Virus record (IMG/VR): IMGVR_UViG_3300024180_000003
Span: 1 to 64,000 of that record
Source of the DNA: a virus
Reading direction: 5' to 3' (one strand)
DNA: 64,000 nt
This document shows positions 22,124-47,766 of the stretch, in pieces; position 1 is the stretch's first letter; every line of letters begins with the position of its first letter. The notes under the pieces were generated by a model. That model did not search any database. It was given only the letters and a program-made list of their open reading frames with translations, and had not been told where the DNA came from. The position numbers and the translations under genes are program-made.

Positions 22124-22669
22124 TTAAGATACTAGATCTGATGCTGCCTGTTTAAGTAGAGAGGTTACTTCCACGCCTTTAATTAATGCTTTTGCGGAAA
22201 GACCTGCTGCTGCTGCCCATCTAGTAGTTTTAAGAGCTTGTAGAGCTCCTCCTCCTGCTTGACCTGCCATTAAGAAAATTAAGATACCGTATACTATTTT
22301 AGTTGCTGCTGATTTCTTCTTTTCATCTTTAGTAAACATGCCCACTATACGTTTGATAGGTGCCATAAACGCTGCTTCGTTCTTATGTGTGAAGTCTTCC
22401 CACCATTCAGCACTTTTGAGTATTCCGGGTTTATTATATTTCTTAGATAGCGATTTAGCAATCTTAGCAAGCATATGTGCTACTGTGTTAGATAGAAGTA
22501 TATATCCTATTATACCTACTACTCCAGCGACTTCGTTTGTATCTCCGTCTAATTCACCTTTATGCGGTCTTAGCTCTTTTTCTATTGCTTTTGCTATTTG
22601 GTCTGCCATTTGCCCCATTCCTGGTTCAGCATTACCTTCTGCTTCTAGAATAATACTTGCTAACTTCAT
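22124..22669 (-). CDS. Candidate internal head protein with membrane segments
   Basis: A 181-residue protein starting MKLASIILEAEGNAEPG. The first nine residues plus Ala fit a T4-like capsid-targeting sequence with a cleavable Glu-Ala bond. Residues about 46-70 (VAGVVGIIGYILLSNTVAH) and about 122-145 (ATKIVYGILIFLMAGQAGGG) are hydrophobic enough to span membranes, and a third Ala-rich segment follows (RWAAAAGLSAKALIKG). It sits between the prohead protease and the scaffold genes, where T4 keeps prohead core genes nearby. I infer a packaged protein that could act on the host membrane at infection. A plain hypothetical membrane protein is the alternative. Its start overlaps the gp21 stop by one base, and a terminator follows it. 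Confidence 0.7.
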   Translation of the reverse strand: MKLASIILEAEGNAEPGMGQMADQIAKAIEKELRPHKGELDGDTNEVAGVVGIIGYILLSNTVAHMLAKIAKSLSKKYNKPGILKSAEWWEDFTHKNEAAFMAPIKRIVGMFTKDEKKKSAATKIVYGILIFLMAGQAGGGALQALKTTRWAAAAGLSAKALIKGVEVTSLLKQAASDLVS

Positions 22670-23247
22670 TAAGCTCTTAGTATATCGTTTAAGATTGCAT
22701 CCAGCTTAATAAACTTAGATGCCTTACCTTTTCCTTCATTAAGTGAAATAGGATTCATAAATGCTCCATGAGTAGAAGGATTAGATACAAAATCCCAACA
22801 TACCAATTCAAAATCATCTTGCACTTCTAATGCTCCTTCATTTGTTTGTTGTACTGAGCCTGTTCCTCTAGATGATATCCCTATAGTGTGTCCTGCTTTA
22901 ATTATTTCTTTTACAATATTACCTGAAGGTGTATTTAGTAGTTCCACACGTCCCATAAGGTCGTTTCCCTTCCACCATAAGTCTTTTACTATGTGTGAAG
23001 CGTTCTTTAGAGAGACAATGGGAGACTCAGGGTGATCTAATTCTCCAAATGCATTACCGTTTGAAACAAATTCAGAGATATACTTCTTAGTTTCTCTTTC
23101 TAAAATAGCTTTACTATAAGTTCTACCATTTTGATTCTTTGCAGTTGCTCTTTGCATAACTCCTTCTACTTCGTATACTCCAGGTCTTTCTTTGGATTCT
23201 CTTAGAATAGGATTAAATGATGTAACTTCTATAAGTAATTGTGCCAT
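22669..23247 (-). CDS. g21: Prohead core protease, T4 gp21-like
   Basis: A 192-residue protein with the U9 serine protease layout of T4 gp21: GVYEVEGVMQRATAKNQNGR, then FGELDHPESP with candidate catalytic His72, then KDLWWKGNDLMGRVEL, then AGHTIGISSRGTGS with candidate catalytic Ser125/126, and a final WDFVSNPSTHGAFMNP. The protease cleaves capsid, scaffold and internal proteins after Glu at sites of the form (I/L)-x-E. Its presence makes the many short N-terminal segments ending in Glu in this window functionally suggestive. It lies between the 208-residue and 181-residue unknown genes and upstream of gp22 and gp23, as expected. Confidence 0.93.
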   Translation of the reverse strand: MAQLLIEVTSFNPILRESKERPGVYEVEGVMQRATAKNQNGRTYSKAILERETKKYISEFVSNGNAFGELDHPESPIVSLKNASHIVKDLWWKGNDLMGRVELLNTPSGNIVKEIIKAGHTIGISSRGTGSVQQTNEGALEVQDDFELVCWDFVSNPSTHGAFMNPISLNEGKGKASKFIKLDAILNDILRA

Positions 23248-23267
23248 GTTATTTTTGTTTTTTCAGA

Positions 23268-23894
23268 TTAAAGATTTAAATCATCTTTAGATGCTACTTT
23301 TATGATTTTATGCATCTCGTTATTTAAATGGTTAACAACATCTTCTGCGTAAAATAAATCGTCCTGTACTAAATCAGTGTAAAGTTCTTGAAAATAGTTT
23401 AAGAATTTAGCTTTTAATTGTTGGTTTAATAAACCTTCGATACGTTCCGCTACTTCTCTATCAACTCTAGCTTCATATATATTATCTGATGGTGAGTTTG
23501 AAATAGCATTTAGTATATCATCAGCTGTTTCTGGTTGGATCTGTCCGTCATCTAATAATTTAAATATTATTTTTCTAAGAGTTTCTGTTGATGCTGTCAT
23601 TTTTAAAGCTTCTTCAACTTCTCCATCTGCAGGATCAATATCTTTTAGTAAGTCAATTGCTCTTGCTATTTTAGGATTTTTAAGAATATTTTCGTTTTCT
23701 TTTTCCGCTAACTTATTTACCAGAGCAATGACTGCAGATGCCATTGTTTGTGGGTTTTTTATCTGGTTTGCAAAGTTATTAAGTACTGAGTCGGGTATTG
23801 TAGGAAGGTTAACTGCTTGTGCTTCTTCTAGCTTGCGTGCTTCTGTTAAACGTCTTTTTTGATTCCAACTATATATGTCAAAGTTATCTTTCAT
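23268..23894 (-). CDS. Putative head-core protein, unknown family
   Basis: A 208-residue mostly helical, acidic protein starting MKDNFDIYSWNQKRRLTEAR. The RRLTEARKLEEAQA segment (about residues 14-27) contains LTE-A and LEE-A bonds that fit the gp21 cleavage consensus. The rest has no motif I recognise; the C-terminal half (ERIEGLLNQQLKAKFLNYFQ and FYAEDVVNHLNNEM) looks like helical bundles. It lies immediately before the protease gene and its start overlaps the previous stop by one base. A role in the prohead core is likely from position and composition, but not shown by sequence. Confidence 0.65.
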   Translation of the reverse strand: MKDNFDIYSWNQKRRLTEARKLEEAQAVNLPTIPDSVLNNFANQIKNPQTMASAVIALVNKLAEKENENILKNPKIARAIDLLKDIDPADGEVEEALKMTASTETLRKIIFKLLDDGQIQPETADDILNAISNSPSDNIYEARVDREVAERIEGLLNQQLKAKFLNYFQELYTDLVQDDLFYAEDVVNHLNNEMHKIIKVASKDDLNL

Positions 23895-26347
23895 TATTTT
23901 CTTTTTTTATTTTCTTGTAAAGTTCCATTAACTGTAGGTCTTGAGTATACCGTTTCTTTTTCTACTTCTCCTAGAGGATTTTGTGTTTCAATATCTTTCT
24001 GTGATATCATTTTTACTTTAGGTTGTGTTAGTCCTTTTGTGAATCCACCTTTAATTGCTGGTCTTAAGTCCTTATTAAATGCTTGCTCTATTGCAGGAGC
24101 TAAAAATCCTCCTACTTTTAGACCTTCTTCATTCCTAATATCACCTAAAGTGTCATATACTTTCTGAATCTTACTTCTTGTTTTATCGTAGTATGCTTCA
24201 ATATCTGTTACAACATCTTGAAGATTTATAATTGATTGTTTCATTCCTTCATATCCTCCGTATGTTTCAGAGAAATCTGCTAATGCATTTGTTGCAGCTT
24301 CATTTACTACCCCTTCTTCTAATACCTTAACAATTATAGATTTAATATTTTCTTTAACTACCTTCTCCTTGCCCATTGCTTTTTTAATAGCAGCATCTTT
24401 ACTAGCCATATAATCATCTCCATCTACATCTCCATCTCCATCGTGATCTTTACCTTTAGCTTCTTCAAGATTTTCTACCATAAATTGAGTTTCTAGGTAT
24501 GTCAATACATCTTTTTTAGCAAACTCTACCATTCCTGGTTCTGTCATTGGACCCATTTTCCATTCTTCCCAAGCCTTGATTAGCATATTAACTCCTTTAT
24601 CAAATAAAGGTCCCATACTCTCAACATATCCTCCAGTTTCGTAGTCGTTTTCAGTTACTACTTTACCTCCTTTAGTCTTTCTTCTTCTACCTTCGTTAAT
24701 TGAATCATCTCCATGGAACAGTTGAGACTCTAATCCTGCTAGATTAAAATCATACTTATCAGCAATTGCTATCATCATTTCCATAGCAGCATCTTTCTCG
24801 CTAACATCTCCATCTGTGGCGATATCTTGAATTCCTTGAACGCATAAATCAAATGCTCCTCGACTTTCCTGTATATCACTATCCTCTGCTACTACTTTTC
24901 TTACCTTATCAGCTCCTTCGTCCATTTCTCCTAAAGTTTTACGTACTGCTTGTCTAAACATCTTTAAGTGATCTAAAGCTCCTTTTTTATCTCCATCTTG
25001 TATGTAGTCTATAGCATTACCTAAATGTCCGTTTTCTCTATGGTAATTTACATCTTCAAAAGAGTCATAAAGTTTTTGCATTTTATCTAAAGGAGTACTT
25101 ATTTTAAGTTTAAGCCCTGCTTTTAGCATTCCGTCGTAGTCAAAGTCTGTTGAAAATTTGTCTCCTAATTTATAAATTTTATCAATTGCTTTCATATCTG
25201 TATCTTTACCGTACTTAGCAATCTTTTTCATTTCATCATCAGTCATAGCTTCTGCTACAAATTGTGTTTTGGCTGCTTCAAGATCTCCTTTATATAGGTT
25301 ATCTACTACTTTTTTCCCTAAAATTTCTAAATCGCCGTTAGTTAGAGAATGAGGTCTATTAAAACCCTCTAAATATCCTCTACCTATAGCTATTAAAGTT
25401 TCATCTGGATTGTCAGTATCTTCAGGCTCTAGTGTTAAATCTTCTGCTTCTTGCATGTAGTCCCCAGGCATTTCGTAATTTACTGATAAGAACTCTTGAA
25501 AATTATCTAATGCATCTTGAGGTTCTTGATCTCTTGATTCAGGGTGTGTTGCGAAAAAGTCACCTATAATATCATCATCTATTAGACTTTTTCCTGTGTT
25601 GGGGTTAGAGTAGTACTTTATAATAAAATTTGCAATAGATTCTTCTTGATTACTTTCTTTGATATCTTCTACCATTACTAATCCTATATCTCTATAATCT
25701 ATTTCTTCTTCTTGTCCATCTAGGTCAACAGCAAATACAGTATCGTCATGCCACATTGCAGCATTATCATCATTATTAGAATTAGGATTATAAATTATAT
25801 ATTCTTTTCCGTTACCGGTTTGAATACGAGCATCGTCTGCGTCACCTAATTTTTTCAGTAACTTTTCTTTGGTATAGTTTTCTTTTAAATCAGCTTTTTT
25901 CATGCCGTTAAAAGTATCTACTTTATTCTTATCAGTTGGTTCTACCATTTTATCGTGCTTATCAACTTTTGCTGATTCTCCTGCTAGTATGTTAAGGTAG
26001 TGCATTCTATCTTTTTCAAGGTTTTTGATTGCAATTTTCTCTGCTTTATCTTTATCCTCTTTGGTTACAGTAGCAGCCGAATCTACTCCAGCTTTTTCTA
26101 ATTCAAAGTCTACCCCTCTTGTTAGGTCCTCTACCGAGTATTGAGATACTGGGCATTCGTACTCTAATGAAGCTTCTTTTTTAGCTTCAAAAAGAATCCC
26201 TTTACTTTTAAGGATTGATACTGTGTCTGGGAATCCGTTAAAGGGAGATAGGAATTGAGATAGCTCTCTCTTAGCATCTTTAAGGAATTGTTGTTTAGAG
26301 AATGTACCCTCTACAACTGCGTTATATTTTTCTTGTATTGTTTTCAT
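23894..26347 (-). CDS. Large acidic head-region protein with EF-hand-like loop
   Basis: An 817-residue acidic protein starting MKTIQEKYNAVVEGTFSKQQ. This start is strikingly like the T4 internal-protein signal MKTYQEFIAE. Most of the sequence is helical and Asp/Glu/Lys-rich with no enzyme motif seen. Near residues 620-650 lies DHDGDGDVDGDDYMASKDAA, a run of Asp-x-Asp-Gly that resembles a calcium-binding EF-hand/dockerin loop. Soon after comes NIKSIIVKVLEEGVVNEA, which resembles the short amphipathic Glu-ending segments found at the N-termini of other proteins here. The C-terminal 120 residues are more ordered (GLKVGGFLAPAIEQAFNKDL). It lies between portal and protease genes, so a core or packaged protein is plausible. 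Confidence 0.7.
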   Translation of the reverse strand: MKTIQEKYNAVVEGTFSKQQFLKDAKRELSQFLSPFNGFPDTVSILKSKGILFEAKKEASLEYECPVSQYSVEDLTRGVDFELEKAGVDSAATVTKEDKDKAEKIAIKNLEKDRMHYLNILAGESAKVDKHDKMVEPTDKNKVDTFNGMKKADLKENYTKEKLLKKLGDADDARIQTGNGKEYIIYNPNSNNDDNAAMWHDDTVFAVDLDGQEEEIDYRDIGLVMVEDIKESNQEESIANFIIKYYSNPNTGKSLIDDDIIGDFFATHPESRDQEPQDALDNFQEFLSVNYEMPGDYMQEAEDLTLEPEDTDNPDETLIAIGRGYLEGFNRPHSLTNGDLEILGKKVVDNLYKGDLEAAKTQFVAEAMTDDEMKKIAKYGKDTDMKAIDKIYKLGDKFSTDFDYDGMLKAGLKLKISTPLDKMQKLYDSFEDVNYHRENGHLGNAIDYIQDGDKKGALDHLKMFRQAVRKTLGEMDEGADKVRKVVAEDSDIQESRGAFDLCVQGIQDIATDGDVSEKDAAMEMMIAIADKYDFNLAGLESQLFHGDDSINEGRRRKTKGGKVVTENDYETGGYVESMGPLFDKGVNMLIKAWEEWKMGPMTEPGMVEFAKKDVLTYLETQFMVENLEEAKGKDHDGDGDVDGDDYMASKDAAIKKAMGKEKVVKENIKSIIVKVLEEGVVNEAATNALADFSETYGGYEGMKQSIINLQDVVTDIEAYYDKTRSKIQKVYDTLGDIRNEEGLKVGGFLAPAIEQAFNKDLRPAIKGGFTKGLTQPKVKMISQKDIETQNPLGEVEKETVYSRPTVNGTLQENKKRK

Positions 26348-26552
26348 CTAAGTAATCAAACATTTTAGTGTTATAAGGTCTTTTTTTATTTTTAACTTTT
26401 TTAAAACCTAGCTTTTCAGCTTGCTTTGTTGCTCTATTATCACCTTTCTTTTTACTAAAGGCAAATGGAGTTTGATACCCTCCTACTGCTGCTGAGGTGC
26501 TAAGTTCTTCTATTACTTCTTTTATAGCTTTTCTTATTGTGCTTTTTTTCAT
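26322..26552 (-). CDS. Small basic protein with amphipathic N-terminus
   Basis: A 76-residue basic protein. It starts MKKSTIRKAIKEVIEELSTS, an amphipathic helix of the second signal type noted in findings, then a basic tail (KQAEKLGFKKVKNKKRPYNT). It overlaps the next gene by 26 bases and the previous gene by four (ATGA), so it is tightly coupled. I know no function. If the N-terminal segment is a targeting signal, this would be a small basic protein carried with DNA in the head, which is inference. Confidence 0.6.
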   Translation of the reverse strand: MKKSTIRKAIKEVIEELSTSAAVGGYQTPFAFSKKKGDNRATKQAEKLGFKKVKNKKRPYNTKMFDYLDENNTRKI

Positions 26553-27403: not shown

Positions 27404-27420
27404 AATGTACGGTTCCTATA

Positions 27421-30938: not shown

Positions 30939-32339
30939 CTACATTACTTTTAGGTACACAGCAGAAATAGAGCTTCTTGAACCAGCATAATTTACTATGT
31001 CTGTTAATGCTGCTTCTACTTTATCCTTGCTACCTGTTTTTAAAACCTTTGCTACTTTTAATGCTTGGTACTTTGAATTTAACCAATCAGTAGTTTTTGA
31101 ATTTAATTCTTCTTCAGTTATACTGAAGTATTCATTACATAATTCGAGTAATTCGTTAACAAATGAGGGTGTGTACTCTATAGCTAACTTAGCAGATTCT
31201 TTCTGAGTTGGTATAGGTCCTAATCCTTGTTTATCTAAAAACGTTTTGAGTACACCTCCACCTATTTTTCCTTGAGCGGCAGTTTTACCTTTCAATTCTC
31301 CTTGAAACGAATTACCACCGGTTGTTCTAAGTTGTAATATTTTTCCTGATTTAGTGTTTACATAAGCATCTTTAGAACCGCCTGAAGAAATTATACTATC
31401 TAAAACTTCTATTTCTGAAACTCTTTCTTTATTTACTGTTTTTACAGTTGGAGATTTACCAAGTTTCTTTAGCGAAATACCTATTAAAGTTCTACTATTG
31501 AATAAATCTAACAGTTGGTTGTTATATTCTTCTAATGTTTCACTATCTAATTTAATATTTTTTCCTGTTGGTTTTACTGCCCAAATATCCGATGGATTCC
31601 ATTTATCATCTTTGATACTCCATTTATTTTTTTTCTTTATTTTTTTCCACACTTCGTATATAGAATCTACAAATGATGAACCTCGATGGAATTCGTACCC
31701 TTTATCTAAATAGCCAGATAATAAAGAAGCTGTGTTAACAAATGTAGAAGCCCAGCCGGGAGAATTAGTAATATAATCTACTATTTCCTCTACGCTTGAT
31801 GTAGTCTCTATATCTTTGGAAATACTTTTTATATTTTCTGAGGTAAGATCTTTCTCTTCTAATTTGCCTTGTTTCTGGTATAAAGCTAAAACTGCACACA
31901 TACTTGATTCTTGTATATCTGTTTGTGCTGATCCTGCTCCAGATCCTGCTCCACCTCCAAAATCTGCTGATTTTGCTAATTTAGATGTTGTAATAGAATT
32001 TCCTTCTCTGTTAAAAAGAGTCACTGCCTTTTTAGATACATCCCATTTTTCTAATTCACTTACTTTTTCACCTCTTGGATCATATACTAAAAAAGTATCT
32101 TCTGAATCATCTATAGCTAGAGGTTCTTTGTTCTTAATTTTTCTTATTAGTATATCAATTCTATTTTCTTTTGTATTAGAATTTACTTTATCTAATTCAG
32201 CTGGTGTAAGAGGTGTTTCATTAAGGTTAAAACCGAATATAGATTCAAACAAATCCATATCCTCTTGACTGTTAATGTCAGGATACCCTTTTTTGGTCTT
32301 ATAGGACCATTCTAATAAAACTTTATCTATAAGATTCAT
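30939..32339 (-). CDS. Possible PD-(D/E)XK-like nuclease beside the terminase
   Basis: A 466-residue protein starting MNLIDKVLLEWSYKTKKG, another N-terminal segment ending in LLE. The centre carries a Gly-rich loop (ADFGGGAGSGAGSAQTDIQE), then KWNPSDIWAVK near 247-257 and TLIGISLKKLGKS near 286-298. The D followed by a hydrophobic-x-S-x-K-K strand resembles the D...(E/S)xK core of restriction-endonuclease-like folds. I recall similar WNP-DIW proteins in other large phages, not characterised. A nuclease that trims packaged DNA or attacks host DNA is possible, but weakly supported. It lies directly upstream of TerL, with a two-base gap. Confidence 0.55.
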   Translation of the reverse strand: MNLIDKVLLEWSYKTKKGYPDINSQEDMDLFESIFGFNLNETPLTPAELDKVNSNTKENRIDILIRKIKNKEPLAIDDSEDTFLVYDPRGEKVSELEKWDVSKKAVTLFNREGNSITTSKLAKSADFGGGAGSGAGSAQTDIQESSMCAVLALYQKQGKLEEKDLTSENIKSISKDIETTSSVEEIVDYITNSPGWASTFVNTASLLSGYLDKGYEFHRGSSFVDSIYEVWKKIKKKNKWSIKDDKWNPSDIWAVKPTGKNIKLDSETLEEYNNQLLDLFNSRTLIGISLKKLGKSPTVKTVNKERVSEIEVLDSIISSGGSKDAYVNTKSGKILQLRTTGGNSFQGELKGKTAAQGKIGGGVLKTFLDKQGLGPIPTQKESAKLAIEYTPSFVNELLELCNEYFSITEEELNSKTTDWLNSKYQALKVAKVLKTGSKDKVEAALTDIVNYAGSRSSISAVYLKVM

Positions 32340-32358: not shown

Positions 32359-32721
32359 CTATGCTTTTTCTCCTCCTGAGATTTCTTCATTCCAAGCTTT
32401 CATCCAGTCGTTAACAAATTGTTCTAATTCTTGACCTTCAAGTTCAACAACGTATTTACCTATTCTATGTCCTTCGTCTTTAGCTTGTTCTTTATTTAAC
32501 TCGGCAGCATTTTTATAGTTCTTCAGTGAGTAAGGTTCAGGGATCTGGTAGCCTGCTTTAACTTGCAGTTTGTAAGATTCGTACCCGTTATCGCTATAAT
32601 TTTTACCTCCTTTATCAAGGTCCGGTACTAGATCTAACGCTTCTTCATCACTATGATCTTGGTTTTCAATAACTGTTTTTTTATTTTCAGCTAAAAATTT
32701 TCTTAAGTCAAAATTGTCCAT
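32359..32721 (-). CDS. Small acidic protein with FLAE-type N-terminus
   Basis: A 120-residue acidic protein starting MDNFDLRKFLAENKKTVIEN. The first 12 residues match the shape of the T4 capsid-targeting sequence (MKTYQEFIAE), with a possible cut after Glu12. The rest (YESYKLQVKAGYQIPEPYSL, then FVNDWMKAWNEEISGGEKA) is unfamiliar. It lies between the 822-residue unknown protein and the possible nuclease. It is probably a packaged or head-core protein if the signal works; otherwise function is unknown. Confidence 0.65.
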   Translation of the reverse strand: MDNFDLRKFLAENKKTVIENQDHSDEEALDLVPDLDKGGKNYSDNGYESYKLQVKAGYQIPEPYSLKNYKNAAELNKEQAKDEGHRIGKYVVELEGQELEQFVNDWMKAWNEEISGGEKA

Positions 32722-37480: not shown

Positions 37481-37681
37481 TTACTGACAGTGGTAGTTTA
37501 AGTACCTCTGTAATGCTTTTGCAAAATGTGTTCCTTTATCTTTTAATTTACTTTTTTCTTTACGTACTTTTGAACAAGATAGTTTTCCAATCCTCTTTTT
37601 TAATATACCCGGTTTTACCGGATCGTGTGGACCTTCATATAGCACCTCAAGTATTACATCTTTTAAATCGTTCCTATTCAT
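37481..37681 (-). CDS. Small basic protein with amphipathic N-terminus
   Basis: A 66-residue basic protein. The start MNRNDLKDVILEVLYEGPHD is amphipathic and Glu-rich like other candidate signals here, and the rest is Lys-rich (LKKRIGKLSCSKVRKEKSKL) with two Cys. If the N-terminal part is removed, a very basic 50-residue peptide would remain, suited to DNA binding inside the head. That is inference. It is separated by five bases from its upstream neighbour, another short basic protein. Confidence 0.55.
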   Translation of the reverse strand: MNRNDLKDVILEVLYEGPHDPVKPGILKKRIGKLSCSKVRKEKSKLKDKGTHFAKALQRYLNYHCQ

Positions 37682-37897: not shown

Positions 37898-38578
37898 TTA
37901 TTTCTCTTTCCATATATCCCCTCGTCTACATCTTACCACTGCTCCTGAGGCATAAGCTGATGGCCATGTGTCGTATTTCTGTTTTGCTAATCTAGTACAT
38001 CTATCGTCTTTCTTCTCGTTTAAATTACCGTCAGTATAAGCATCGTATCTATCTTCATCGCTTTGTGCATAATTTAACATATCGTTCAAATCGTAATCAC
38101 TATGAAGTTTTGGATTCAAAATAGTTACAGCGTTAGGTAAATCGTCTCCTCTTCCTATATGGAGTTCATAATCTACGCCAGGTTTGTATTTACTTCTTAA
38201 GTGGTTAACAACGTCCTCAATAGCGTCTAAATCGTATCCAAAGCTAATTAAGTTTTGAGGGTTTTTTATTTCGTTTACCATCCCTACTACTAGGTTTGTT
38301 AAATCTTCTTTTGTTACCTTTGCTTTTTTTGTATTCTTCACGACTGTCTTTCCTTTACTTCCTGCTTTCTTTTTCTTTGCTGCAGTAGCGGCTCTTTGGC
38401 CTTTTGTTAAACTCTGTGCTTTTGATTTCGGCAAGCACCTATCCGGATTTTTTTTATTCTTTGAAGTACCACAGTCTCCTGCTATGTTACCAGAAGATGA
38501 TATTCTTACCCATTTTTCTTTTTTAAACCAATCTCTTAATGACTCTTTAACTATATCTCTTACTGTACTTTGTTTCAT
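37898..38578 (-). CDS. Basic Cys-containing phage protein with two conserved modules
   Basis: A 226-residue protein. It starts MKQSTVRDIVKESLRDWFKK (amphipathic signal-like helix). Residues about 23-75 are a basic module (WVRISSSGNIAGDCGTSKNK, then CLPKSKAQSLTKGQRAATAA) that I recall from many large phages. Residues about 90-110 repeat a helix of the N-terminal kind (TKEDLTNLVVGMVNEIKN). The last 30 residues (CTRLAKQKYDTWPSAYASGA, then VVRCRRGD) are another widespread phage or virus module, often at protein C-termini. Function of both modules is unknown to me; Cys and Lys/Arg content fits DNA or metal binding. It is coupled by a one-base overlap to the 118-residue gene. Confidence 0.65.
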   Translation of the reverse strand: MKQSTVRDIVKESLRDWFKKEKWVRISSSGNIAGDCGTSKNKKNPDRCLPKSKAQSLTKGQRAATAAKKKKAGSKGKTVVKNTKKAKVTKEDLTNLVVGMVNEIKNPQNLISFGYDLDAIEDVVNHLRSKYKPGVDYELHIGRGDDLPNAVTILNPKLHSDYDLNDMLNYAQSDEDRYDAYTDGNLNEKKDDRCTRLAKQKYDTWPSAYASGAVVRCRRGDIWKEK

Positions 38579-38934
38579 TACTGTATACGTATTACTTCTG
38601 ATAATAGTTTAATTACTACACCAGCGAGAACTGTAAATATAATCCAAAGAGCTTTCTGTACACTATCTTTCCATTTTTTTAAATCTTGTATTTCTTGAAG
38701 TTTATTGAAAAAATCTTTTTCATTATCTTCCATCCTTTTACGGAAAGCTGAGTTTTGATTGGTTTTAACTATAGTACCGTCTTCTGGGTTTAGTAATGTA
38801 TACTTGAGATCCGACATATCATCTTTCAGTCCTTTAACGTCTTTCAGCATAATTTTTAGTTCACCGTTAGGCATATGCTTTTTTATGTGAACTAATTCTT
38901 TAAGTACTGATTCAAGTAAATCTTTTTGTGTCAT
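38578..38934 (-). CDS. Coiled-coil protein with C-terminal membrane segment (XhlA-like)
   Basis: A 118-residue protein starting MTQKDLLESVLKELVHIKKH. Residues about 20-90 are coiled-coil-like and end in DLKKWKDSVQK; residues about 94-113 (ALWIIFTVLAGVVIKLLSEV) form a single transmembrane helix near the C-terminus. That order is typical of XhlA-type haemolysin/holin-associated proteins. It may help lysis or anchor something at the membrane. No endolysin or canonical holin is visible next to it, so the lysis role is uncertain. The N-terminus also resembles the amphipathic signals in findings. A TATTTATA motif lies 31 bases upstream. Confidence 0.55.
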   Translation of the reverse strand: MTQKDLLESVLKELVHIKKHMPNGELKIMLKDVKGLKDDMSDLKYTLLNPEDGTIVKTNQNSAFRKRMEDNEKDFFNKLQEIQDLKKWKDSVQKALWIIFTVLAGVVIKLLSEVIRIQ

Positions 38935-38977: not shown

Positions 38978-39553
38978 CTATTCTAGCTTAAGTTTTAAAA
39001 ATTCTATATACTCCTGTAATTCTTTAGTAATTTTTCTTTTTGTTTCCGTTTCATTACTTTTCCAGTCCTCTATATCTCCTTGCTCTGTTACAAATGTTTG
39101 CTTAGATGAGTTGTTTATATGCTCAATTTTTTGCTCAAATGCTTTGATAAAGTATTTAATATTACCCTTGTTAACACTTCTAATGTAGTCTTCAAATAAT
39201 CCGTTTTTCCTGAGCTCTTCCGTATATGTCATATAACAGTTAAAACACATTTTTGATTTCTTATATGTCTCTTTACTCAGGTAGTAATTCATTGGTCCGC
39301 TGCATTTAGGACAGGTAAGAGGAGTCTGCATTGCTTTTTTTGCTGCGTCAAACTTGGTAACGTTTTGTTTTATCCCGTTCTTTATTACCCATTGTTTTCC
39401 ATTTTCTTCCCAAACTTCACCTTCTTTATGTACTGTGTATGTTTTTTTATACCCTATCTGTGACTTAGTAGATGCAGTATAATCTTTTTTAATAAGATTT
39501 CTCATGCGCTCTACATCAGCTTTTTTAAACTCTTTTTTTAGTTTATTACTCAT
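38978..39553 (-). CDS. Zinc-ribbon protein, unknown function
   Basis: A 191-residue protein with a CPKC pair at 81/84 and a CFNC pair at 103/106, spaced as a zinc ribbon. The surrounding sequence is basic and helical (KEFKKADVERMRNLIKKDY at the start, TKRKITKELQEYIEFLKLKL at the end). A treble-clef or zinc-ribbon protein that binds nucleic acid or RNA polymerase is plausible; the specific job is unknown. It overlaps the HAD phosphatase gene by eight bases. Confidence 0.7.
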   Translation of the reverse strand: MSNKLKKEFKKADVERMRNLIKKDYTASTKSQIGYKKTYTVHKEGEVWEENGKQWVIKNGIKQNVTKFDAAKKAMQTPLTCPKCSGPMNYYLSKETYKKSKMCFNCYMTYTEELRKNGLFEDYIRSVNKGNIKYFIKAFEQKIEHINNSSKQTFVTEQGDIEDWKSNETETKRKITKELQEYIEFLKLKLE

Positions 39554-40136
39554 ATCCTAACTCTTTAAGACCGTTTAGTGCTTCTGTTATGTCTCCTCCT
39601 TTAACTCTAAACGCTATACCGCCTTTTGCTCTCCACTCTTCTATGTTTGACTTTTTATCATCAATGAGTATAGCATTAGGGTTAGCATAGTTTTGTTTAT
39701 ATGCTGAGTATGCAAATATTACTTTAGGTTTTGGAGTAAGTTGATTCTTAACCCAGAGGTTTTTACCTAATCTGGATGTGTTATCTCTTGATGGTGAAGT
39801 AAGAAGCGATGGATTGTATTTAGATATAAAGCTCCAGAGTTCTTTTCCTCTTGGCATCCAGTCCATTCCTACCCAGAATGATACACCAACTATTTGGTCT
39901 ATAAATTTCCAGAATTCAGTCATGCCGAATATTGCCTCAAAATCTTTTGGCTTAATTACTTTTTTTATGTCCTTAAGTGGGTAGTGATCAGGACCAACCT
40001 CATTTACTTTATCAAAGAATCTTTTTTCGAAGTCTGTTAATACTCCGTCCATATCGCAATATATCTTATACTTTGATGTTTTTTCTGCTACTGTTGGTGG
40101 GTGTGCATCTAATAAATCTATTATACTTGTATTCAT
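39546..40136 (-). CDS. HAD-superfamily phosphatase (nucleotidase-like)
   Basis: A 196-residue HAD hydrolase. Motif I is CDMDGVLTDFE with nucleophile Asp28 and acid/base Asp30. Motif II is LLTSPSRD near 108-115. Motif IV is AILIDDKKSNIEEW near 155-168. This layout resembles 5'(3')-deoxyribonucleotidases and other phage HAD phosphatases. It would dephosphorylate nucleotides or nucleic-acid ends in the cytoplasm; the exact substrate cannot be read. The first 20 residues (MNTSIIDLLDAHPPTVAEK) precede the domain. A 76-base AT-rich gap separates it from the upstream fusion protein. Confidence 0.8.
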   Translation of the reverse strand: MNTSIIDLLDAHPPTVAEKTSKYKIYCDMDGVLTDFEKRFFDKVNEVGPDHYPLKDIKKVIKPKDFEAIFGMTEFWKFIDQIVGVSFWVGMDWMPRGKELWSFISKYNPSLLTSPSRDNTSRLGKNLWVKNQLTPKPKVIFAYSAYKQNYANPNAILIDDKKSNIEEWRAKGGIAFRVKGGDITEALNGLKELGYE

Positions 40137-40212: not shown

Positions 40213-41781
40213 CTATATAGTGTAAACCGGTGTAGATGTTTTGAAGTCTTTCTTTCTCATTATAGTCTTTGCGTACATATCTATACCATCATCTGTAACA
40301 TCAATTGCAAAAGGAACGTTAATATCATTGTTGAAATCTTTTACTACTGCGTTAATATCCGTATCTAATCTTGAAAGAGGTTTACCATGTTTTCTATGTA
40401 ACCTCTTAAACATACCAATTAGTTCTGGTACTGTTATTGTTTTACCGTTCCGGTCATCGTTAGCTCTGTCCAAAAAGTGTTTTGTAAACTCTATATCTAT
40501 CCCTAACTTTATAAAAAGTTTATCTGCGTATTTTTCTATTGCGTTTAATTCTGTTTTTGTAATATTTTCACCTACAATTGATTCCTTTTTAGTCTTTTCT
40601 AAAGAGTCTCCTGCTTTTTTAGCAGCTTTATACGCTTTTGAGTTTTTATGAGAAGCTTTCTTTCCTTTCTTTTTCTTAGCATTAATATTAGCCCAGAGAC
40701 CTTCTTCTAAACCTTTTAAACTATCCTCCCAGTTACGGAAAGTTATGTTGCCTAATAGGTACGCTTCTTTTTCTATCTCCATTAAGTACTCATCTTCATT
40801 TGTATTTGAAGTACCTATACGCCCTAACCTACCTTCTATGTTCTGAATATGGTGAATCATTTCGTGAGCAAAAGATCTAACGATATCTTTATCGTGTCTT
40901 CCTTCTGCGAAAAGTACTATCTCTTTTAATGATGGACTGTAATATGCAGTTCTGCCGAAAAAGTTACTTGCTTCTATTGGGTCCCTTTTAATTTTTATTT
41001 CCGGTAAAGGTAATATGTTCATTTTACGGTCTAACATATATTCAGTCAAAGATGTTATATAATCTTTTAATTCTAGTTTCTTACCTGCTTCTTCATTTAT
41101 TTCTACCTCTAATTGTTCTACTTCGTTATTTTCGTTAAGAGCAAAATATTCATCTATAATTCCGCTGAGACTTGAGCTTATTACTTCTGCTACTATTTTA
41201 TCTTTCAAACCTGTAAGTATTGATAGTATTTCTTCTCTAGATAACTCTTTAGGGAAAAAATCTAAAATCTTATCTAAGTTACCCGATAGTATATTGTTTC
41301 TAAAATCTGTTGCTCTAATTGTTGACCCAGGTTTTGCTGCGAGTGCTAATCCTTTAACATTGGGAGCGTTTTTATAAGTAGTAACTCTCCTTAAATCTAC
41401 AAAATCTTTCTCACCTCTTATTCCTGTTACTGATGCGAATTCTTGTTCAGGGTTAGCTTGTGCATAATCTTTGGCTGCAAACATTGGGTTGCTCCCTCCG
41501 TCTTTTATCTCAACATTACCTAAGTATTTAGCATAAGTATTCCATATAGACATTGATTCATCTTTAGATATACCGTTTCTCTCACCTGCTCCTACGAAAA
41601 CTATAACCTTGTCTATATTCGGTTTTTCACCGTTGCTGCCACCTAGAAGTGAAGCACCAGTTTCTTTGTAATTATCTTTATTATATATTGAACCGTTATA
41701 TGAGCCGTCTAATAATGACTTTACTACGTTGTAATGTCCTCTATGAGGAGGTTTATATGCGCCTGGGTATAATGCTATCAT
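40213..41781 (-). CDS. Three-part fusion: nucleotidyltransferase, HExxH protease, phage C-terminal domain
   Basis: A 522-residue protein. Residues 1-165 form a cytidylyltransferase-like domain: YPGAYKPPHRGHYNVV (HRGH at 13-16, the HxGH motif), VFVGAGERNGIS, and GSTIRATDFR near 152-161, as in NMN or pantetheine-phosphate adenylyltransferases. Residues about 240-345 carry FAHEMIHHIQNIEGR with HExxH at 306-310 and Glu residues downstream, as in zinc metallopeptidases. A basic linker (KKKKGKKASHKN) follows. Residues about 432-519 form a compact domain (FTKHFLDRANDDRNGKTIT, ending AKTIMRKKDFKTSTPVYT) that I recall from other T4-like marine phage proteins, of unknown function. The substrate of each part is unknown. 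It overlaps the P-loop kinase gene by four bases. Confidence 0.75.
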   Translation of the reverse strand: MIALYPGAYKPPHRGHYNVVKSLLDGSYNGSIYNKDNYKETGASLLGGSNGEKPNIDKVIVFVGAGERNGISKDESMSIWNTYAKYLGNVEIKDGGSNPMFAAKDYAQANPEQEFASVTGIRGEKDFVDLRRVTTYKNAPNVKGLALAAKPGSTIRATDFRNNILSGNLDKILDFFPKELSREEILSILTGLKDKIVAEVISSSLSGIIDEYFALNENNEVEQLEVEINEEAGKKLELKDYITSLTEYMLDRKMNILPLPEIKIKRDPIEASNFFGRTAYYSPSLKEIVLFAEGRHDKDIVRSFAHEMIHHIQNIEGRLGRIGTSNTNEDEYLMEIEKEAYLLGNITFRNWEDSLKGLEEGLWANINAKKKKGKKASHKNSKAYKAAKKAGDSLEKTKKESIVGENITKTELNAIEKYADKLFIKLGIDIEFTKHFLDRANDDRNGKTITVPELIGMFKRLHRKHGKPLSRLDTDINAVVKDFNNDINVPFAIDVTDDGIDMYAKTIMRKKDFKTSTPVYTI

Positions 41782-42719
41782 GCTAAAAATGATTGTACTT
41801 TAGAGTCTATTTCTCCTACTGAGGAGTGATTTAATTTTTCTTGAAATGTTGGATTGTATATCATATCTACAATATTATCTAGAACTTCATCTGCTTTTCC
41901 TTTTCTTTTTATATTGCTGTCTCTATACTTTTGAACTGCTGCTTTAAGCTTATCCTGTCCTGGGCCTGCTCCGTTCTTTCTGTAAGCTTTTAGAAATGCA
42001 GTTTTAATTGCTTTGTCTTCTGATCTATTTTCTTTATCCCAATCTATACTACCAACATCTTTTATAAATTGTTGCTCTTCTTCAGGTGTCATCTCTACTG
42101 GTACAAAGAAGGAAGAGCCGCCGACATTATTATCTTGATTAAATTTCTCTAAATAATCTTTTACTCCACTTAAGCCACTTTTAGCAGCTTTATCAAATCC
42201 TTCAACTTCTTTTTTATATTTACCGCCTCTATCACTTACAAAGATAGATAAGTTACCTTTTAACTGTCTGTTAAAGTCTTCTATTTTAGTATACACATTT
42301 CTCCAGGTAGCAAATACAGAATCGCCAGGAATATTTCTTTCCCTAGCCATAAAGTTAGAAACGTAAGAAATCATAGGGTGAGCATACACCATAACCATAT
42401 AGACCTGGTAGCCTGTTGCAAGTAATTTATCTAGATTTTTTTGGAAGCCTGCTCCGGATGCAGTAGTATCCCAAACAAAGCTAGTTTTTTCTTCTGCTGC
42501 TGCCATTGCGTCTTTGGACGTTTGATTGGCTGCTGGTCCTAGTTTGTTGTAATACGGGTGGTCTTTGTCCTCCACGTACTTGTCTGGGTTGAATTGTACT
42601 AGGCTGTCTAGTCCTAATTGGTTGAGTAGGTACGTTTTCCCTGATCCTGCTCCTCCCGCCATTATTATTGCTTTGGGTGCGGATCTGTCCTCTAGTATTA
42701 GTGTTGATAATTTTATCAT
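41778..42719 (-). CDS. P-loop kinase (zeta-toxin-like) with LILE N-terminus
   Basis: A 313-residue P-loop protein starting MIKLSTLILEDRSAPK. Walker A is GGAGSGKT at 22-29, followed by NPDKYVEDKDHPYY and FVWDTTASGAG, the order found in zeta-toxin/polynucleotide-kinase-type P-loop kinases; ARERNIPGDSVFATWRNVY supplies Arg residues of a lid. The C-terminal 120 residues are helical and unfamiliar. It may phosphorylate a nucleotide sugar, nucleotide or nucleic-acid end. The ten residues before the domain fit a capsid-targeting signal with Glu10. Its first 239 bases overlap the lipoprotein gene in another frame. I chose ATG 42719 because the P-loop begins only 21 residues later. Confidence 0.8.
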   Translation of the reverse strand: MIKLSTLILEDRSAPKAIIMAGGAGSGKTYLLNQLGLDSLVQFNPDKYVEDKDHPYYNKLGPAANQTSKDAMAAAEEKTSFVWDTTASGAGFQKNLDKLLATGYQVYMVMVYAHPMISYVSNFMARERNIPGDSVFATWRNVYTKIEDFNRQLKGNLSIFVSDRGGKYKKEVEGFDKAAKSGLSGVKDYLEKFNQDNNVGGSSFFVPVEMTPEEEQQFIKDVGSIDWDKENRSEDKAIKTAFLKAYRKNGAGPGQDKLKAAVQKYRDSNIKRKGKADEVLDNIVDMIYNPTFQEKLNHSSVGEIDSKVQSFLA

Positions 42720-43317
42720 CTGTCGTGTTATTTGTTCTTCGGTTTCTTACTTCTAGTTTAATTATATCTGCAATCTCGTCTACTGTTTGAGTTCTTCTTG
42801 TAGTTTGTCTTAATCTTCTACCTGAAGGAACTATATTAACACTTCTTCTACCGTACATGTATGTTGCATTCCATCCTCTATTATAATTAGGATAATAGTT
42901 CCAATTGTGCCATCCGTAGTAGTTATTCCAACCGTAGTTATTATACCCCCATCTGTCGTATCCAAATGGTGACCATCTATGAGGTGTGATACCCCATGCC
43001 CAATCGTTCCACATTTGAGTTCTGTTCCAATAGGGACTATAACCTAACCCGTAGTATGGATTATACCTATTGTACCTGTTACCTAGAATACGATTATTCC
43101 AATCAAATGATATGGGTTGACTTAACGCATATTGAGCAAAGTCAAATCTAAAATTAAAATCTGTTCTTAATAGTCGTTGAAGTTCAAACTCATTATCTAT
43201 TACTATTATTTCTGCATCTGATCCTTGTATGCTATAGTTAGGATCGTGATTTAAGGTGCTTACCTGTAAAGAAGAGCATCCTGTTAATAATACTAGTAAA
43301 AATAATAACTTTTTCAT
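42481..43317 (-). CDS. Phage-borne lipoprotein with Tyr/Trp/Asn-rich middle and basic overprinted tail
   Basis: A 278-residue protein with a clear lipoprotein signal: MKKLLFLLVLLTGCSSLQVS, lipobox LTGC with Cys14. Residues about 75-150 are very rich in Tyr, Trp, Asn and Gly (YNPYYGLGYSPYWNR, NNYGWNNYYGWHNW). Similar lipoproteins are common in Flavobacteriia, so a host origin is likely. The last 80 residues are Arg/Gln/Thr/Ser-rich and lie entirely over the start of the P-loop kinase gene in a different frame. It would sit on the periplasmic side of a membrane; superinfection exclusion or envelope change is a guess. It starts three bases after the nuclease gene, with a TATTTATA motif 32 bases upstream of the ATG. 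Confidence 0.75.
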   Translation of the reverse strand: MKKLLFLLVLLTGCSSLQVSTLNHDPNYSIQGSDAEIIVIDNEFELQRLLRTDFNFRFDFAQYALSQPISFDWNNRILGNRYNRYNPYYGLGYSPYWNRTQMWNDWAWGITPHRWSPFGYDRWGYNNYGWNNYYGWHNWNYYPNYNRGWNATYMYGRRSVNIVPSGRRLRQTTRRTQTVDEIADIIKLEVRNRRTNNTTDDKIINTNTRGQIRTQSNNNGGRSRIRENVPTQPIRTRQPSTIQPRQVRGGQRPPVLQQTRTSSQSNVQRRNGSSRRKN

Positions 43318-43320
43318 ACA

Positions 43321-45023: not shown

Positions 45024-45067
45024 GTAGTTGTCCGTAACTATTATCTTATAATATAAGAAAAATAATT

Positions 45068-45496
45068 CTAAATATCAACTAATTTCAGTTTATTTTTTTG
45101 ATTTACCATTACATTTGATGGTCTTATATCTAGTTCTTCTGGGTCGAGTCCCATCCTTTGTGCTTCAGCTTCAGTTGCTTCAATCCATTCTTCAGGAATA
45201 TCTCCTTTAAATTCTCCTAGCACTTCCATTTGAATTATTCCTAACTTTTCATTAATCTCTTCTACATCGTATATAAAAGCAAAGTTATTTGTTTTTTTAC
45301 CTTTAAGTATATGTGCATGTTCTAACTCTATTGAATCAGTTGTTACTTTATAAACTCTACCGTTTAGAAGATATGCAGAGCCGTAATCTCCTGAGCCTAG
45401 ATACTTCCCTCCAAGTTCTTTTACTTTCTCTACTTCTTTTTCAAACCCGGGATCGTAGTAAAGAATCTCTCCTAATATTACGTGTGATAGTCTCAT
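45068..45496 (-). CDS. Miniature protein-kinase-like protein
   Basis: A 142-residue protein. It starts MRLSHVILGEILYYD, a signal-like N-terminus. A kinase core follows in compressed form: glycine loop LGSGDYGSAYLL at 33-44, VYKVTT with Lys50, Glu57/Glu59, a hinge-like region (FAFIYDVEEINEKLGIIQME), then LDIRPSNVMVN with Asp123 and Asn128, and KLKLVDI with Asp141 as the DFG Asp equivalent. The chain ends right after it, so the usual C-lobe is missing. Such short kinase-like proteins occur in large phages; activity on host proteins or small molecules is possible. If the N-terminal signal is real, the kinase would be delivered with the DNA. Confidence 0.7.
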   Translation of the reverse strand: MRLSHVILGEILYYDPGFEKEVEKVKELGGKYLGSGDYGSAYLLNGRVYKVTTDSIELEHAHILKGKKTNNFAFIYDVEEINEKLGIIQMEVLGEFKGDIPEEWIEATEAEAQRMGLDPEELDIRPSNVMVNQKNKLKLVDI

Positions 45497-45501
45497 ATCT
45501 T

Positions 45502-45933
45502 TTAATCTAATGAACCATGTTTACCGGAATGCATATCATCTCCAAATTTACGAGCTTGTTTTGTAAGTACACTTATGTAAATTGGATGGTCGTCAGATCC
45601 TTTAGGACCAGTTCCGTAATAGGAGTTAATTCTTATACCTTCTAAATCATCTCCTTTATCCATATGGGCTTTTACTACTTTACCGACTGTTGTGATAACA
45701 TCACTTTTCCAAGAACCTTCCGGTTTAATTGTTTGTGTATCTTTGCTGGTCTTAAAGATGGTTGTATTAGTAGGTATACTTATAGATTTTATAGTACTAG
45801 GCATTCTATCTATTGCTTTTTTAAAATCTTCTAAAGTATCAGCTGTGCCTAGCCAGTTAACAGAGTATTTTTTTCCGTTTATAGTTGAAGCGTCTTCTCT
45901 AAAGCCTTCGAATATGATATTAGTTAATTTCAT
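45502..45933 (-). CDS. Unknown protein with MKLTNIIFE N-terminus
   Basis: A 143-residue protein starting MKLTNIIFEGFREDAS, with Glu9 followed by Gly as a possible processing site. The rest is alpha/beta (KKYSVNWLGTADTLEDFKKA, then SWKSDVITTVGKVVKAHMDK, then PIYISVLTKQARKFGDD). No family is recognised. It is overlapped by four bases with the cupin-like gene upstream and followed after five bases by the kinase-like gene, so the three are co-expressed. Confidence 0.6.
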   Translation of the reverse strand: MKLTNIIFEGFREDASTINGKKYSVNWLGTADTLEDFKKAIDRMPSTIKSISIPTNTTIFKTSKDTQTIKPEGSWKSDVITTVGKVVKAHMDKGDDLEGIRINSYYGTGPKGSDDHPIYISVLTKQARKFGDDMHSGKHGSLD

Positions 45934-46205
45934 TTGCGTTCTATTTTAAGGGTTAAGTCTCCTGTGCCTTTTATTAGCCGGTGGTACACTTCCTTTGGTA
46001 TAAATAGCTTGTTATCATCTAAAGAAACGGGAAGGTTATTATCAAATTGAAATTGCCAGTCTGTTTTATGCATTGCTACAACATACCGATCCTCTCGGTC
46101 TTTGTGCCAAACAAATTCATCTTCATCTGTGTTTTGATTGAAGAATCTAATATCACCGTCATCTAAGTACGGTCTACCAATATCCTGAGAAGTTTCTTTT
46201 TCCAC
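45930..46205 (-). CDS. Small cupin-like protein
   Basis: A 91-residue acidic protein. Residues about 31-90 (FVWHKDREDRYVVAM, WQFQFDNNLPVSL, KLFIPKEVYHRLIKGTGDL) follow the two-motif pattern of a small cupin beta-barrel, with His34, His46 and His75 as possible metal ligands. I recall similar small proteins in other phages, without known function. Its first 32 bases overlap the end of the 389-residue gene in another frame, and its end overlaps the next gene by four bases. Confidence 0.65.
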   Translation of the reverse strand: MEKETSQDIGRPYLDDGDIRFFNQNTDEDEFVWHKDREDRYVVAMHKTDWQFQFDNNLPVSLDDNKLFIPKEVYHRLIKGTGDLTLKIERK

Positions 46206-47343
46206 CTAATGATTTCCAATAACGTCCAATATTACAAGCCCAGTATCCTGGTTTTGTTTTGTCTTTTTTAGTTGCACATTTATGACGTGCAGCAAATGAT
46301 GATCTTGCTCCAGGTTCATCTATCTTAACATTTAAACCTGTTGTACCTCCGAAAGATACTTTTACAACATTCCCTTTTTTATTCTTTGTGTATACGTAGA
46401 ATTTTTTAGAACCTCCACGTTTTGGTTTATTTAGAGGTACATCTTTACCTTTGTATTCTGCTTCATCTAATTGACCTTTTATAGGTAGTTTTCTTTTAGC
46501 TATGGCCAGCAAAGCGCTTCTTAACTGTCTTTTCATATTACCTGCTTCCCATTCCCAGTATCCTATGTCTCCTTCTTTCCAAAAAATCATGTAGTCCTGA
46601 TCTCTACCTTGTCCAGCTATTTTAATTTTAAATTCACTGTTTCTTAGTTTATGGAAAGGGAATTTTGATTTACGGTGATCGTCTTTAGTTACAATATACT
46701 CAGGTATAGATTTAGCTTCTTTAACTGGTTCTTTTAGGTTTTTAAACCATTTCATTAACTCATCATAAGACATATCGTATGCTGGGTGATTATCGGTGTC
46801 ATCAAAGGCTTTTAATTCTGTAGGTTTTGCCTTTAGTAAGGATCGTATAGCTTTGTACCTATTATTAGTTGCATTTATAGTTTTAGTTGCATTAAATAAA
46901 TTGTCTTTAGGCAACTTCCATTTTACATCCCAATCTTTTTGAGAAAATGATTCATCTAATGATTTTTCTAAATCTTTTATTTTTTGGGTTAAAAAAGGCA
47001 CATTCCCTCCATCATTTGGGTCGGCTATTCTCGCTTTTAATCTATCAATTGTTTGTTGAATAGTTTCTTCCTTATCATATTTAGATTCTTCTAACATAGG
47101 TAAATCTAATGGTACTTTTATTCCTTCATATACTCCATATAGCCCTATATCTGTTGTTTCTATTAACTTTAAATCTTCTTCGTTAAGTTGAATTTTACCG
47201 TCTCTATAAGCGTCTCTTGCTTCAGCAAATAATTGTATAAAGCTATCGCTAGAATAACGGTAGACATTCTCATATAAAGAGAGACTGTTATCTATATGGT
47301 ACTTAAGTGATGGTTTTCCTATTATTTCAGTTAATCTAATCAT
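46174..47343 (-). CDS. Phage protein with conserved C-terminal ARHxC/YWAC module
   Basis: A 389-residue protein starting MIRLTEIIGKPSLKYH. The middle is charged and Lys-rich (FPFHKLRNSEFKIKIAGQGR, then DYMIFWKEGDIGYWEWEAG). The last 75 residues are a module I recall from many marine phage proteins: KFYVYTKNKKGNVVKVSFGG, then SSFAARHKCATKKDKTKPGY and WACNIGRYW, with paired Cys. Its function is unknown; metal or DNA binding is possible. The N-terminus fits the signal pattern except that Glu is replaced late in the segment (EIIG). It is followed by the overlapping cupin-like gene. Confidence 0.6.
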   Translation of the reverse strand: MIRLTEIIGKPSLKYHIDNSLSLYENVYRYSSDSFIQLFAEARDAYRDGKIQLNEEDLKLIETTDIGLYGVYEGIKVPLDLPMLEESKYDKEETIQQTIDRLKARIADPNDGGNVPFLTQKIKDLEKSLDESFSQKDWDVKWKLPKDNLFNATKTINATNNRYKAIRSLLKAKPTELKAFDDTDNHPAYDMSYDELMKWFKNLKEPVKEAKSIPEYIVTKDDHRKSKFPFHKLRNSEFKIKIAGQGRDQDYMIFWKEGDIGYWEWEAGNMKRQLRSALLAIAKRKLPIKGQLDEAEYKGKDVPLNKPKRGGSKKFYVYTKNKKGNVVKVSFGGTTGLNVKIDEPGARSSFAARHKCATKKDKTKPGYWACNIGRYWKSLGGKRNFSGYW

Positions 47344-47349
47344 ATTATA

Positions 47350-47766
47350 TTACTTTTTATTTCTTTCTTGCCACTCTTGTGATATTGAATCTTTTTCAAT
47401 TGGACCTCCTTTAGCCCAAGTTCTACAGCTTCTTGCGGAATGACATTTAAAATGATGCATCCAACAGTAACCTAGTCTTCCATCCTCATCAGATGTAACT
47501 CCAGGCATACATTCATCCATCCTCTTGGAGATATCAAAAGCGACGCAGTTACTACAGTTAGTACCTTTTGCTGCTTTTTCTTCTGTATTCCAGTACTTTG
47601 CTATTTCTTTCCAGTAATTACCAGGTTCGTTTACATTTAACGGACCGTATTGAATATGGGGTGCTTTTATTGCTGAGTCTCTATTTTTTGTGTTTAATAT
47701 TAAATCTTGAGTTGCAGCAGGGCACGATTCATTACCCTCTTTAAGTAGAATATCTCTTAATTTCAT
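47350..47766 (-). CDS. Cys-rich protein, possible iron-sulphur or zinc binder
   Basis: A 138-residue protein starting MKLRDILLKEGNESCPAATQ. Seven Cys lie at 15, 71, 74, 86, 101, 108 and 114, in TNCSNCVAFDIS, MDECMPGV, LGYCWMHHFKCHSARSCRTW. The sequence RDSAIKAPHIQYGPLN is a block I recall as conserved in homologues in other marine phages, where the Cys set suggests a HiPIP-like cluster or zinc site. The role is unknown. The N-terminus fits the candidate capsid-targeting pattern (Glu10). Its start overlaps the nuclease-like gene by four bases. Confidence 0.65.
   Translation of the reverse strand: MKLRDILLKEGNESCPAATQDLILNTKNRDSAIKAPHIQYGPLNVNEPGNYWKEIAKYWNTEEKAAKGTNCSNCVAFDISKRMDECMPGVTSDEDGRLGYCWMHHFKCHSARSCRTWAKGGPIEKDSISQEWQERNKK

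Follow-up and report, generated by a model that had tools for sequence, protein, structure and literature searches.

Phage T4 provides the closest described precedent for the system reported here. In the sections of the published accounts on which we draw throughout, its prohead protease gp21 cuts after the glutamate of an [L/I]-x-E site, and residues 4 and 7 of the internal protein IPIII matter for targeting and residues 8 and 10 for processing; IPIII is reported still to reach the head when exchange of the Glu for Asp blocks cutting (PMC9026906); the leader is the only part that Ip1–3 have in common, and these proteins block different GmrSD enzymes (PMC12373910). DarB of phage P1 is comparable in that an N-terminal signal directs this anti-restriction protein to the capsid interior, where a reporter joined to the first 30 residues is likewise taken up, but differs in that the cited sections describe no leader family common to several proteins (PMC9024508). 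SPN3US and phiKZ likewise have a prohead protease, distantly related to gp21, which cuts after Glu; nine protease substrates are given for SPN3US, and at least 19 cleaved head proteins each for phiKZ and 201phi2-1. However, six of the eight N-terminal propeptides of SPN3US are long (111–254 residues), the other two having 20 and 24, and the cited sections describe no common leader for SPN3US or phiKZ (PMC10052503). Here we describe a small set of short, apparently cleavable N-terminal leaders in T4-like viruses that infect aquatic bacteria, starting from a 64,000-nucleotide stretch of viral DNA (IMG/VR record IMGVR_UViG_3300024180_000003, positions 1–64,000; referred to as the window), in which a series of proteins with unrelated bodies begin alike. 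We consider it likely that these shared N-termini are capsid-targeting propeptides and that they belong to a T4-type targeting and gp21-processing system which has been greatly expanded.

The leaders resemble those of the T4 internal proteins and Alt in being short N-terminal peptides on unrelated proteins, with the same spacing of hydrophobic residues and Glu, in a phage that encodes a homologous protease (PMC9026906, PMC12373910). They differ in that other leaders are used (termed F, R and K below), several per genome and interchangeable, one of which equals the tail of a putative scaffold protein. Far more families are tagged than in T4 and the cargo is different. The principle is known from T4. 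What appears to be new is the tags themselves, the way they interchange and how many proteins bear them.

The window is taken from the start of a virus record that is 104,848 bases long, of which it covers bases 1–64,000; of the 130 genes called in this record, 125 lie on the minus strand. The phage is T4-like, and among the named phages of the collection Flavobacterium phage immuto comes closest, with one stretch of the portal gene 76% identical. Literature searches, confined to open-access listings, brought up no paper that we recognised as describing these leaders, nor any virion proteomics of immuto or its group. In a 167,696-base contig, G001, the protease and the capsid protein are 100% identical to those of the window; this contig is the window's phage again and is therefore not independent evidence. 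The earlier note on this DNA, made from the sequence alone, had named a gp21 homologue, and one is indeed encoded at 22669–23247 (minus strand, as are all the tagged genes and head genes of the window given below): it matches Peptidase_S77 (PF03420) with an expectation value (E) of 6.5e-36 and shares 40% identity with T4 gp21 across 156 residues. This gp21-type prohead protease is the presumed enzyme cutting after the leader Glu. The major capsid protein (19266–20870) is gp23-like through its immuto counterpart, which is annotated Gp23; its N-terminus, MEINSLLES, has the same kind of site, and [LI]xE is found at residues 8–14 in 40 of 40 homologues. Between the protease and capsid genes lies a putative scaffold gene (20906–21940), which is presumed gp22-like from this position. 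Its product ends in RMQKLAGIITN, the R leader.

All 13 N-termini quoted in the earlier note are present as quoted on the minus strand, each beginning with an ATG at the coordinate given there. We distinguish four leader types, with labels of our own: S (MKLxxIILE), K (KKSxLRxIIKEEL), F (MxNFDLKKFLxENKLTxNS) and R (RMQxLAGIIxE). For counting, a strict pattern was used, [LIVMFYW]xx[LIVMFYW][LI]xE with the Glu at residue 7–14, because the bare [LI]xE stands out less clearly, being present in 23 of 122 genes where 12.4 are expected. The strict pattern was written after the window had been seen, but the IPIII leader of T4 is spaced in the same way, and relatives as well as T4 itself bear the pattern out. 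Eight of the 13 quoted N-termini contain it and three more (at 26552, 45496 and 47766) have [LI]xE in range, while two end otherwise and contain neither (26347, MKTIQEKYNAVVEG; 38578, MKQSTVRDIVKESLRD); a short leader ending in [L/I]-x-Glu is thus common to unrelated proteins, as in T4.

Genes were called in all genomes with one caller (ATG starts, 60 amino acids or more), and residues 2–20 were shuffled 1000 times as the null. On the window's own contig 14 of 122 genes carry the strict pattern, compared with a shuffle mean of 1.6 and a maximum of 7, so that no shuffle reaches 14. The matches are concentrated within 22124–48242 (9 of 27 genes, compared with 5 of 95 in the rest of the contig; Fisher p = 3.5e-4), and the remainder of the window has 1 in 22 genes. 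A motif search across relatives, which the earlier note had proposed, found the pattern enriched in all seven contigs of the group, the window's phage being counted twice as its own contig and as G001: 14/182 genes in G001, 12/194 in G002, 8/58 in G005 and 14/213 in immuto (0 of 1000 shuffles reach these counts), 10/189 in G003 (2 of 1000) and 7/71 in G004 (1 of 1000). T4 itself has 11 matches among 242 genes (shuffle mean 3.8; 2 of 1000 shuffles reach this), which by their deposited names include ipII, ipIII, alt, gene 24, noted as gp21-cleaved, and gene 2, the DNA end protector. No excess was observed in four phages without a PF03420 match (phi14:2, 1/107; phi4:1, 3/171; SPO1, 3/178; phi38:1, 1/83). 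The pattern also persists among homologues of less than 90% identity, being kept on average in 70% of the members for nine motif genes and in 6% for 55 others; these are the 64 of the 122 genes that have at least three homologues. The observation that unrelated proteins start alike reflects a real, selected leader family.

The leaders also emerge without any motif. Comparison of the first 24 residues of proteins with non-matching bodies (955 proteins, six genomes) brought out the F leader as MxNFDLKKFLVENKLTxNS, K-type starts and a 'ILEWSYKTKKGYPDI' segment; secretion signals of the usual kind and the starts of tail fibres also appeared. With a DNA pattern for FDLKKFLxEN, at least 139 matches were obtained in at least 120 viral loci; 134 of the 139 listed lie 3–4 residues after an ATG. 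Among 104 complete unique proteins of 60 amino acids or more, the F leader is found on at least 47 body families (BLASTP from residue 33, E 1e-2, single linkage). The corresponding pattern for RMQxLAGIIxE gave at least 134 matches in at least 120 loci, with 127 of the 134 listed within 30 residues of the farthest ATG; of six deeper matches two end like scaffold tails and four have a nearer ATG 5–11 residues away, and one further match has no ATG. Its 113 complete unique proteins represent at least 78 body families. When the genomes of 84,980 species of bacteria and archaea were scanned, the F pattern was found in 12 stretches with 13 matches, only two of which, both on contig L450, lie 3–4 residues after an ATG, so that the F leader is all but missing from bacterial genomes, a result that we count in favour of the propeptide reading. 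L450, a 104,613-base contig of an uncultured-bacterium bin with two F-leader genes, is itself probably of phage origin. Of the 50,697 phage records searched at E 1, only the four immuto records match the typed F query (four places each) or the R query (two places each).

Bodies occur under more than one leader. The 314 proteins with F, S or K starts, selected by regular expressions of which that for S is loose, form 107 greedy body families, nine of which are found with at least two leader types. Since single-linkage families chain (one cluster has 121 members), the families of this mixed set were counted greedily and the swaps named here were checked by direct pairs. The body of the window protein starting at 22669 (22124–22669) matches a K version in immuto (E 7e-19) and an F version (E 3e-16), and that of 47350–47766 matches the F-tagged L168_9808 (E 4e-64). 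For 19 of the 113 R proteins a body homologue is found under another leader, the best being 77% identical over 167 residues. One R protein, from L360, has matches among the F-, S- and K-tagged proteins of the 22124 family, which therefore carries all four leaders. At the DNA level, 27 F pairs and 15 R pairs were compared. Leader cores of different genes in the same locus are mostly 85–100% identical (extremes 67% and 79%), while identity is 20–48% upstream of the start (60–78% in three pairs) and 19–50% at +90 to +180. The core identity is partly built in by the fetch pattern, and it is the contrast with the flanks that is informative: with its conserved core and diverged flanks, the leader looks like a short cassette beginning near the start codon, and such cassettes appear to move between genes.

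The Glu is under selection. In 1,359 proteins of G001–G005 and the protease loci, a set not chosen by leader, the residue following the hydrophobic core at positions 8–14 (429 in all) is Glu in 155 cases and Asp in five, compared with 545:456 inside proteins. Weighted by family, the ratio is 15.6:2.4 as against 84.4:69.6 inside proteins (Fisher p 0.005 on rounded values). An earlier count of 298:14 was set aside, because some of its loci had been retrieved through a pattern in which Glu is obligatory.

The leaders co-occur with the protease. In 80 protease loci most of the listed flanking genes begin with an S, F or K leader or with a further type, MRTxTEKYxAVxEG, and a few do not. Four consecutive immuto genes at 102294–104354 carry K, K, S and F leaders, and in locus L152 a mini-kinase gene is followed by four F-leader frames, one of them without an ATG. 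PF03420 is found in 12 of 14 F-leader contigs chosen for size (six of the seven over 100 kb) and in 8 of 18 R-leader contigs (five of five over 100 kb and 3 of 13 shorter ones), figures to be read without a background rate for viral contigs.

The R leader may link the system to the core of the prohead. Among 2,984 proteins, a motif like RMQKLAGIITN was found at 62 C-termini and four N-termini, and 58 of the 62 C-terminal tails belong to proteins with N-termini like that of the putative scaffold at 20906–21940. As the R leader equals the C-terminal tail of this putative scaffold, proteins carrying it may enter the head by mimicking scaffold. In contig G015 we note a protein at 82462 with an RMQ-type motif at both ends and another at 168019 with an S leader and such a tail.

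In our view, the leader would dock its carrier protein on the prohead core during head assembly, after which the gp21-type protease would cut behind the Glu and free the mature protein inside the head. Cargo enzymes would then be ejected with the DNA, and tagged core proteins would be cut up. The lineage has at least four interchangeable leaders, R being the C-terminal tail of the putative scaffold. The structure model of the mini-kinase (below), in which leader residues 1–12 are disordered, and the invariance of its Glu10 were counted in favour of the propeptide reading. Head packaging, cleavage and injection are predictions from sequence, and several observations weigh against this reading. 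Six of the 11 T4 matches are other proteins, of which DNA ligase is the one that was looked up, so that single genes with the S pattern can be chance matches; 1.6 of the contig's 14 are expected by chance. The protease-bearing phages Syn19 (3/181) and phiM12 (6/316) show no excess either, which indicates that the protease alone does not imply many leaders. PF03420 is missing from 10 of the 18 R contigs and 2 of the 14 F contigs, one of the latter 124 kb long. The depletion of [LI]xE in tagged bodies is not specific (0.91 versus 1.20, with 0.90 versus 1.09 for [LI]xxE), and in the family of 26322–26552 the pattern is kept in 15% (strict) or 27% ([LI]xE) of 41 homologues.

Of the other explanations, that the leaders mark proteins of the prohead core only, which build the scaffold, are cut and leave the head with no effector delivered, deserves most attention: genes on either side of the protease are tagged, the putative scaffold has the R leader as its tail, and large size and acidic ends are features of several tagged proteins. 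Some tagged proteins are probably core proteins rather than effectors, and the large ones near the protease may be among them. As an account of the whole set this explanation is nevertheless unlikely, for a Zeta-type kinase, a mini-kinase, a GNAT protein and an Acb1-like protein, none with an obvious scaffold role, are tagged, as are very many unrelated small families. Alternatively, the leader might have nothing to do with the head and instead dock proteins on the host membrane or on another structure made by the phage, with the Glu forming part of a binding helix. The leaders may resemble short amphipathic helices, and direct head evidence is confined to T4; but the strong preference for Glu over Asp fits a Glu-specific protease, the T4 matches include known head proteins and the leaders co-occur with the protease, so that we regard such a role as quite improbable. 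That the pattern arises by chance, or because gene starts in AT-rich phages are biased in general, would gain from the frequency of [LI]xE alone, but is already contradicted by the 14 strict matches where 1.6 are expected, by their persistence in homologues (0.70 versus 0.06), by the occurrence and swapping of the same 10–25-residue leaders on unrelated bodies and by the lack of excess in the four phages without the protease; we give it practically no weight.

Returning to capsid targeting as the preferred reading, the tagged proteins of the window with recognisable folds include two kinases, both named in the earlier note. The P-loop kinase (41778–42719, leader MIKLSTLILE/DRSA, pattern in 14 of 14 homologues) matches Zeta_toxin (PF06414, E 4e-12) at 46.4 bits, above the curated Pfam cut-off of 22.3; against NCBIfam PezT it scores 15.2, far below the cut-off of 470. 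The gene at 40213–41781, which is untagged, begins like a nicotinamide-nucleotide adenylyltransferase (weak NCBIfam match, E 0.0014), and its immuto counterpart, which lies at the same place, is annotated NadR. The kinase-like protein (45068–45496, leader MRLSHVILGE/IL) is a mini protein kinase of 142 amino acids, the structure model of which resembles PDB entries of protein kinases in a Foldseek search (best E 9e-6, template-modelling score about 0.5). Residues 1–12 of this model have a predicted local distance difference test score (pLDDT) below 50 and the rest is confident. In the alignment of its homologues Glu10 is invariant (16 of 16) while the residues before it vary. The window copy departs from its other homologues in the region of the presumed catalytic loop, so that activity is uncertain.

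The suggestion that 22124–22669 (leader MKLASIILE/AEG, pattern in 95% of 38 homologues) may be membrane-active comes from the hydrophobic stretches of the protein alone; its structure model is poor (mean pLDDT 56.3). A second invariant Glu (Glu46, 31 of 31), often in LNE or VNE, lies just before the hydrophobic part and is a possible second protease site. The nuclease-like cargo proposed earlier found no counterpart, in that no nuclease family matched the tagged window proteins searched (E 0.01). As for the large set of packaged effectors envisaged in the earlier note, the same scan recovers T4 head cargo, but several tagged proteins near the protease may belong to the prohead core. Likely core proteins are 23268–23894 (MKDNFDIYSWNQKRRLTEARK, a loose F-like leader), which adjoins the protease, and 23894–26347 (MKTIQEKYNAVVEG), which lacks the strict pattern and has a further N-terminal type seen beside the protease in relatives. 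The large protein at 32751–35219 (S leader, MHKLEKLILE/SYAE), with its acidic C-terminus, is possibly another.

S leaders are further found on 45502–45933 (MKLTNIIFE/GFRE, 143 amino acids), of which the only homologue in the comparison set is that of G001, and 30939–32339 has an S-type leader running into a longer shared segment (MNLIDKVLLE/WSYKTKKGYPDI, pattern in 67% of six homologues). An N-terminal segment, 'ILEWSYKTKKGYPDIN', is common to the latter and to genes at the same place in G002–G005 and immuto, the bodies of which did not match each other. The Cys-rich protein at 47350–47766 (MKLRDILLKE/GN) has the pattern in five of five homologues and relatives with F leaders; an F leader is present on 32359–32721 (MDNFDLRKFLAE/NKK). 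K-type leaders occur on 26322–26552 (MKKSTIRKAIKEVIEE), where the quoted N-terminus is present, and on 37898–38578 (MKQSTVRDIVKE/SLRD), which lacks the strict pattern, and an S/K-type leader is seen on 37481–37681 (MNRNDLKDVILE/VLYE, strict pattern in 25% of four homologues). The protein at 38578–38934 (MTQKDLLESVLKE/LVH, pattern in 67% of six homologues) weakly resembles a 'hemolysin' family of phages (E 0.0006). Besides 23268–23894, likely tagged genes beyond those listed in the earlier note include 17025–17324 (MKLLRILE/QI), which encodes a small, likely S-tagged protein near the neck genes (strict pattern in 53% and [LI]xE in 91% of 34 homologues), and 39546–40136, which encodes a deoxyribonucleotidase-like protein (phrog_2643, E 4.6e-22); in the latter the window copy, MNTSIIDLLDA, has Asp at the site, and [LI]xE is found in 89% of 27 homologues.

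For the tagged proteins of relatives, Pfam at 1e-3 assigned no family to the 66 representatives chosen for the F, S and K types. For the R type, of which 73 of the 113 proteins were covered, it gave one GNAT (5.4e-8), one DUF6576 (6.2e-9) and one Acb1-like protein (4.8e-6). The last, L404:584–1144, scores 26.8 bits against the Pfam Acb1 cut-off of 27 and is therefore termed Acb1-like only; it contains two HxT motifs and is encoded on a 173,789-base contig with PF03420. We regard this R-tagged protein of 2H phosphoesterase type as a candidate packaged enzyme against the cyclic-oligonucleotide-based antiphage signalling system (CBASS). Searches of the PDB by sequence with the L404 and L406 proteins returned nothing at 0.1. 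A 'TLYHFTYIPALREIL' stretch in the R-tagged L406:4079–4687 recalls folds of ADP-ribosyltransferase type, a resemblance for which Pfam, PHROGs and PDB sequence searches gave no supporting match. Pfam yielded no T4 internal protein family for the tagged proteins searched, and no direct comparison with the T4 internal proteins was made. Most of the cargo has no assigned function, and it may act in counter-defence.

We judge the prospects evenly balanced that the T4-like phages of the Bacteroidota maintain an open-ended cargo system, in which a gene that gains one of at least four leader cassettes, one of them a copy of the scaffold's C-terminal tail that lets its carriers enter as scaffold mimics, becomes head cargo, and through which a large and fast-changing counter-defence and takeover set (kinases, the Acb1-like enzyme and many others) is delivered at infection. 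Phage immuto, which grows on Flavobacterium sp. LMO8, is cultured and carries all four leader types, so that a direct test is possible; its genes at 102294, 102880, 103366, 103806, 111675, 117631 and 118632 are among those predicted to encode tagged proteins. If the capsid-targeting reading is true, a short peptide read from sequence would predict which phage proteins ride in the head, and more than a hundred phage gene families, for the most part uncharacterised, would become testable candidates for injected anti-defence or takeover proteins. Portable packaging tags would then exist outside the phages of E. coli, and the leader that equals the scaffold tail suggests a route by which a packaging signal can arise.

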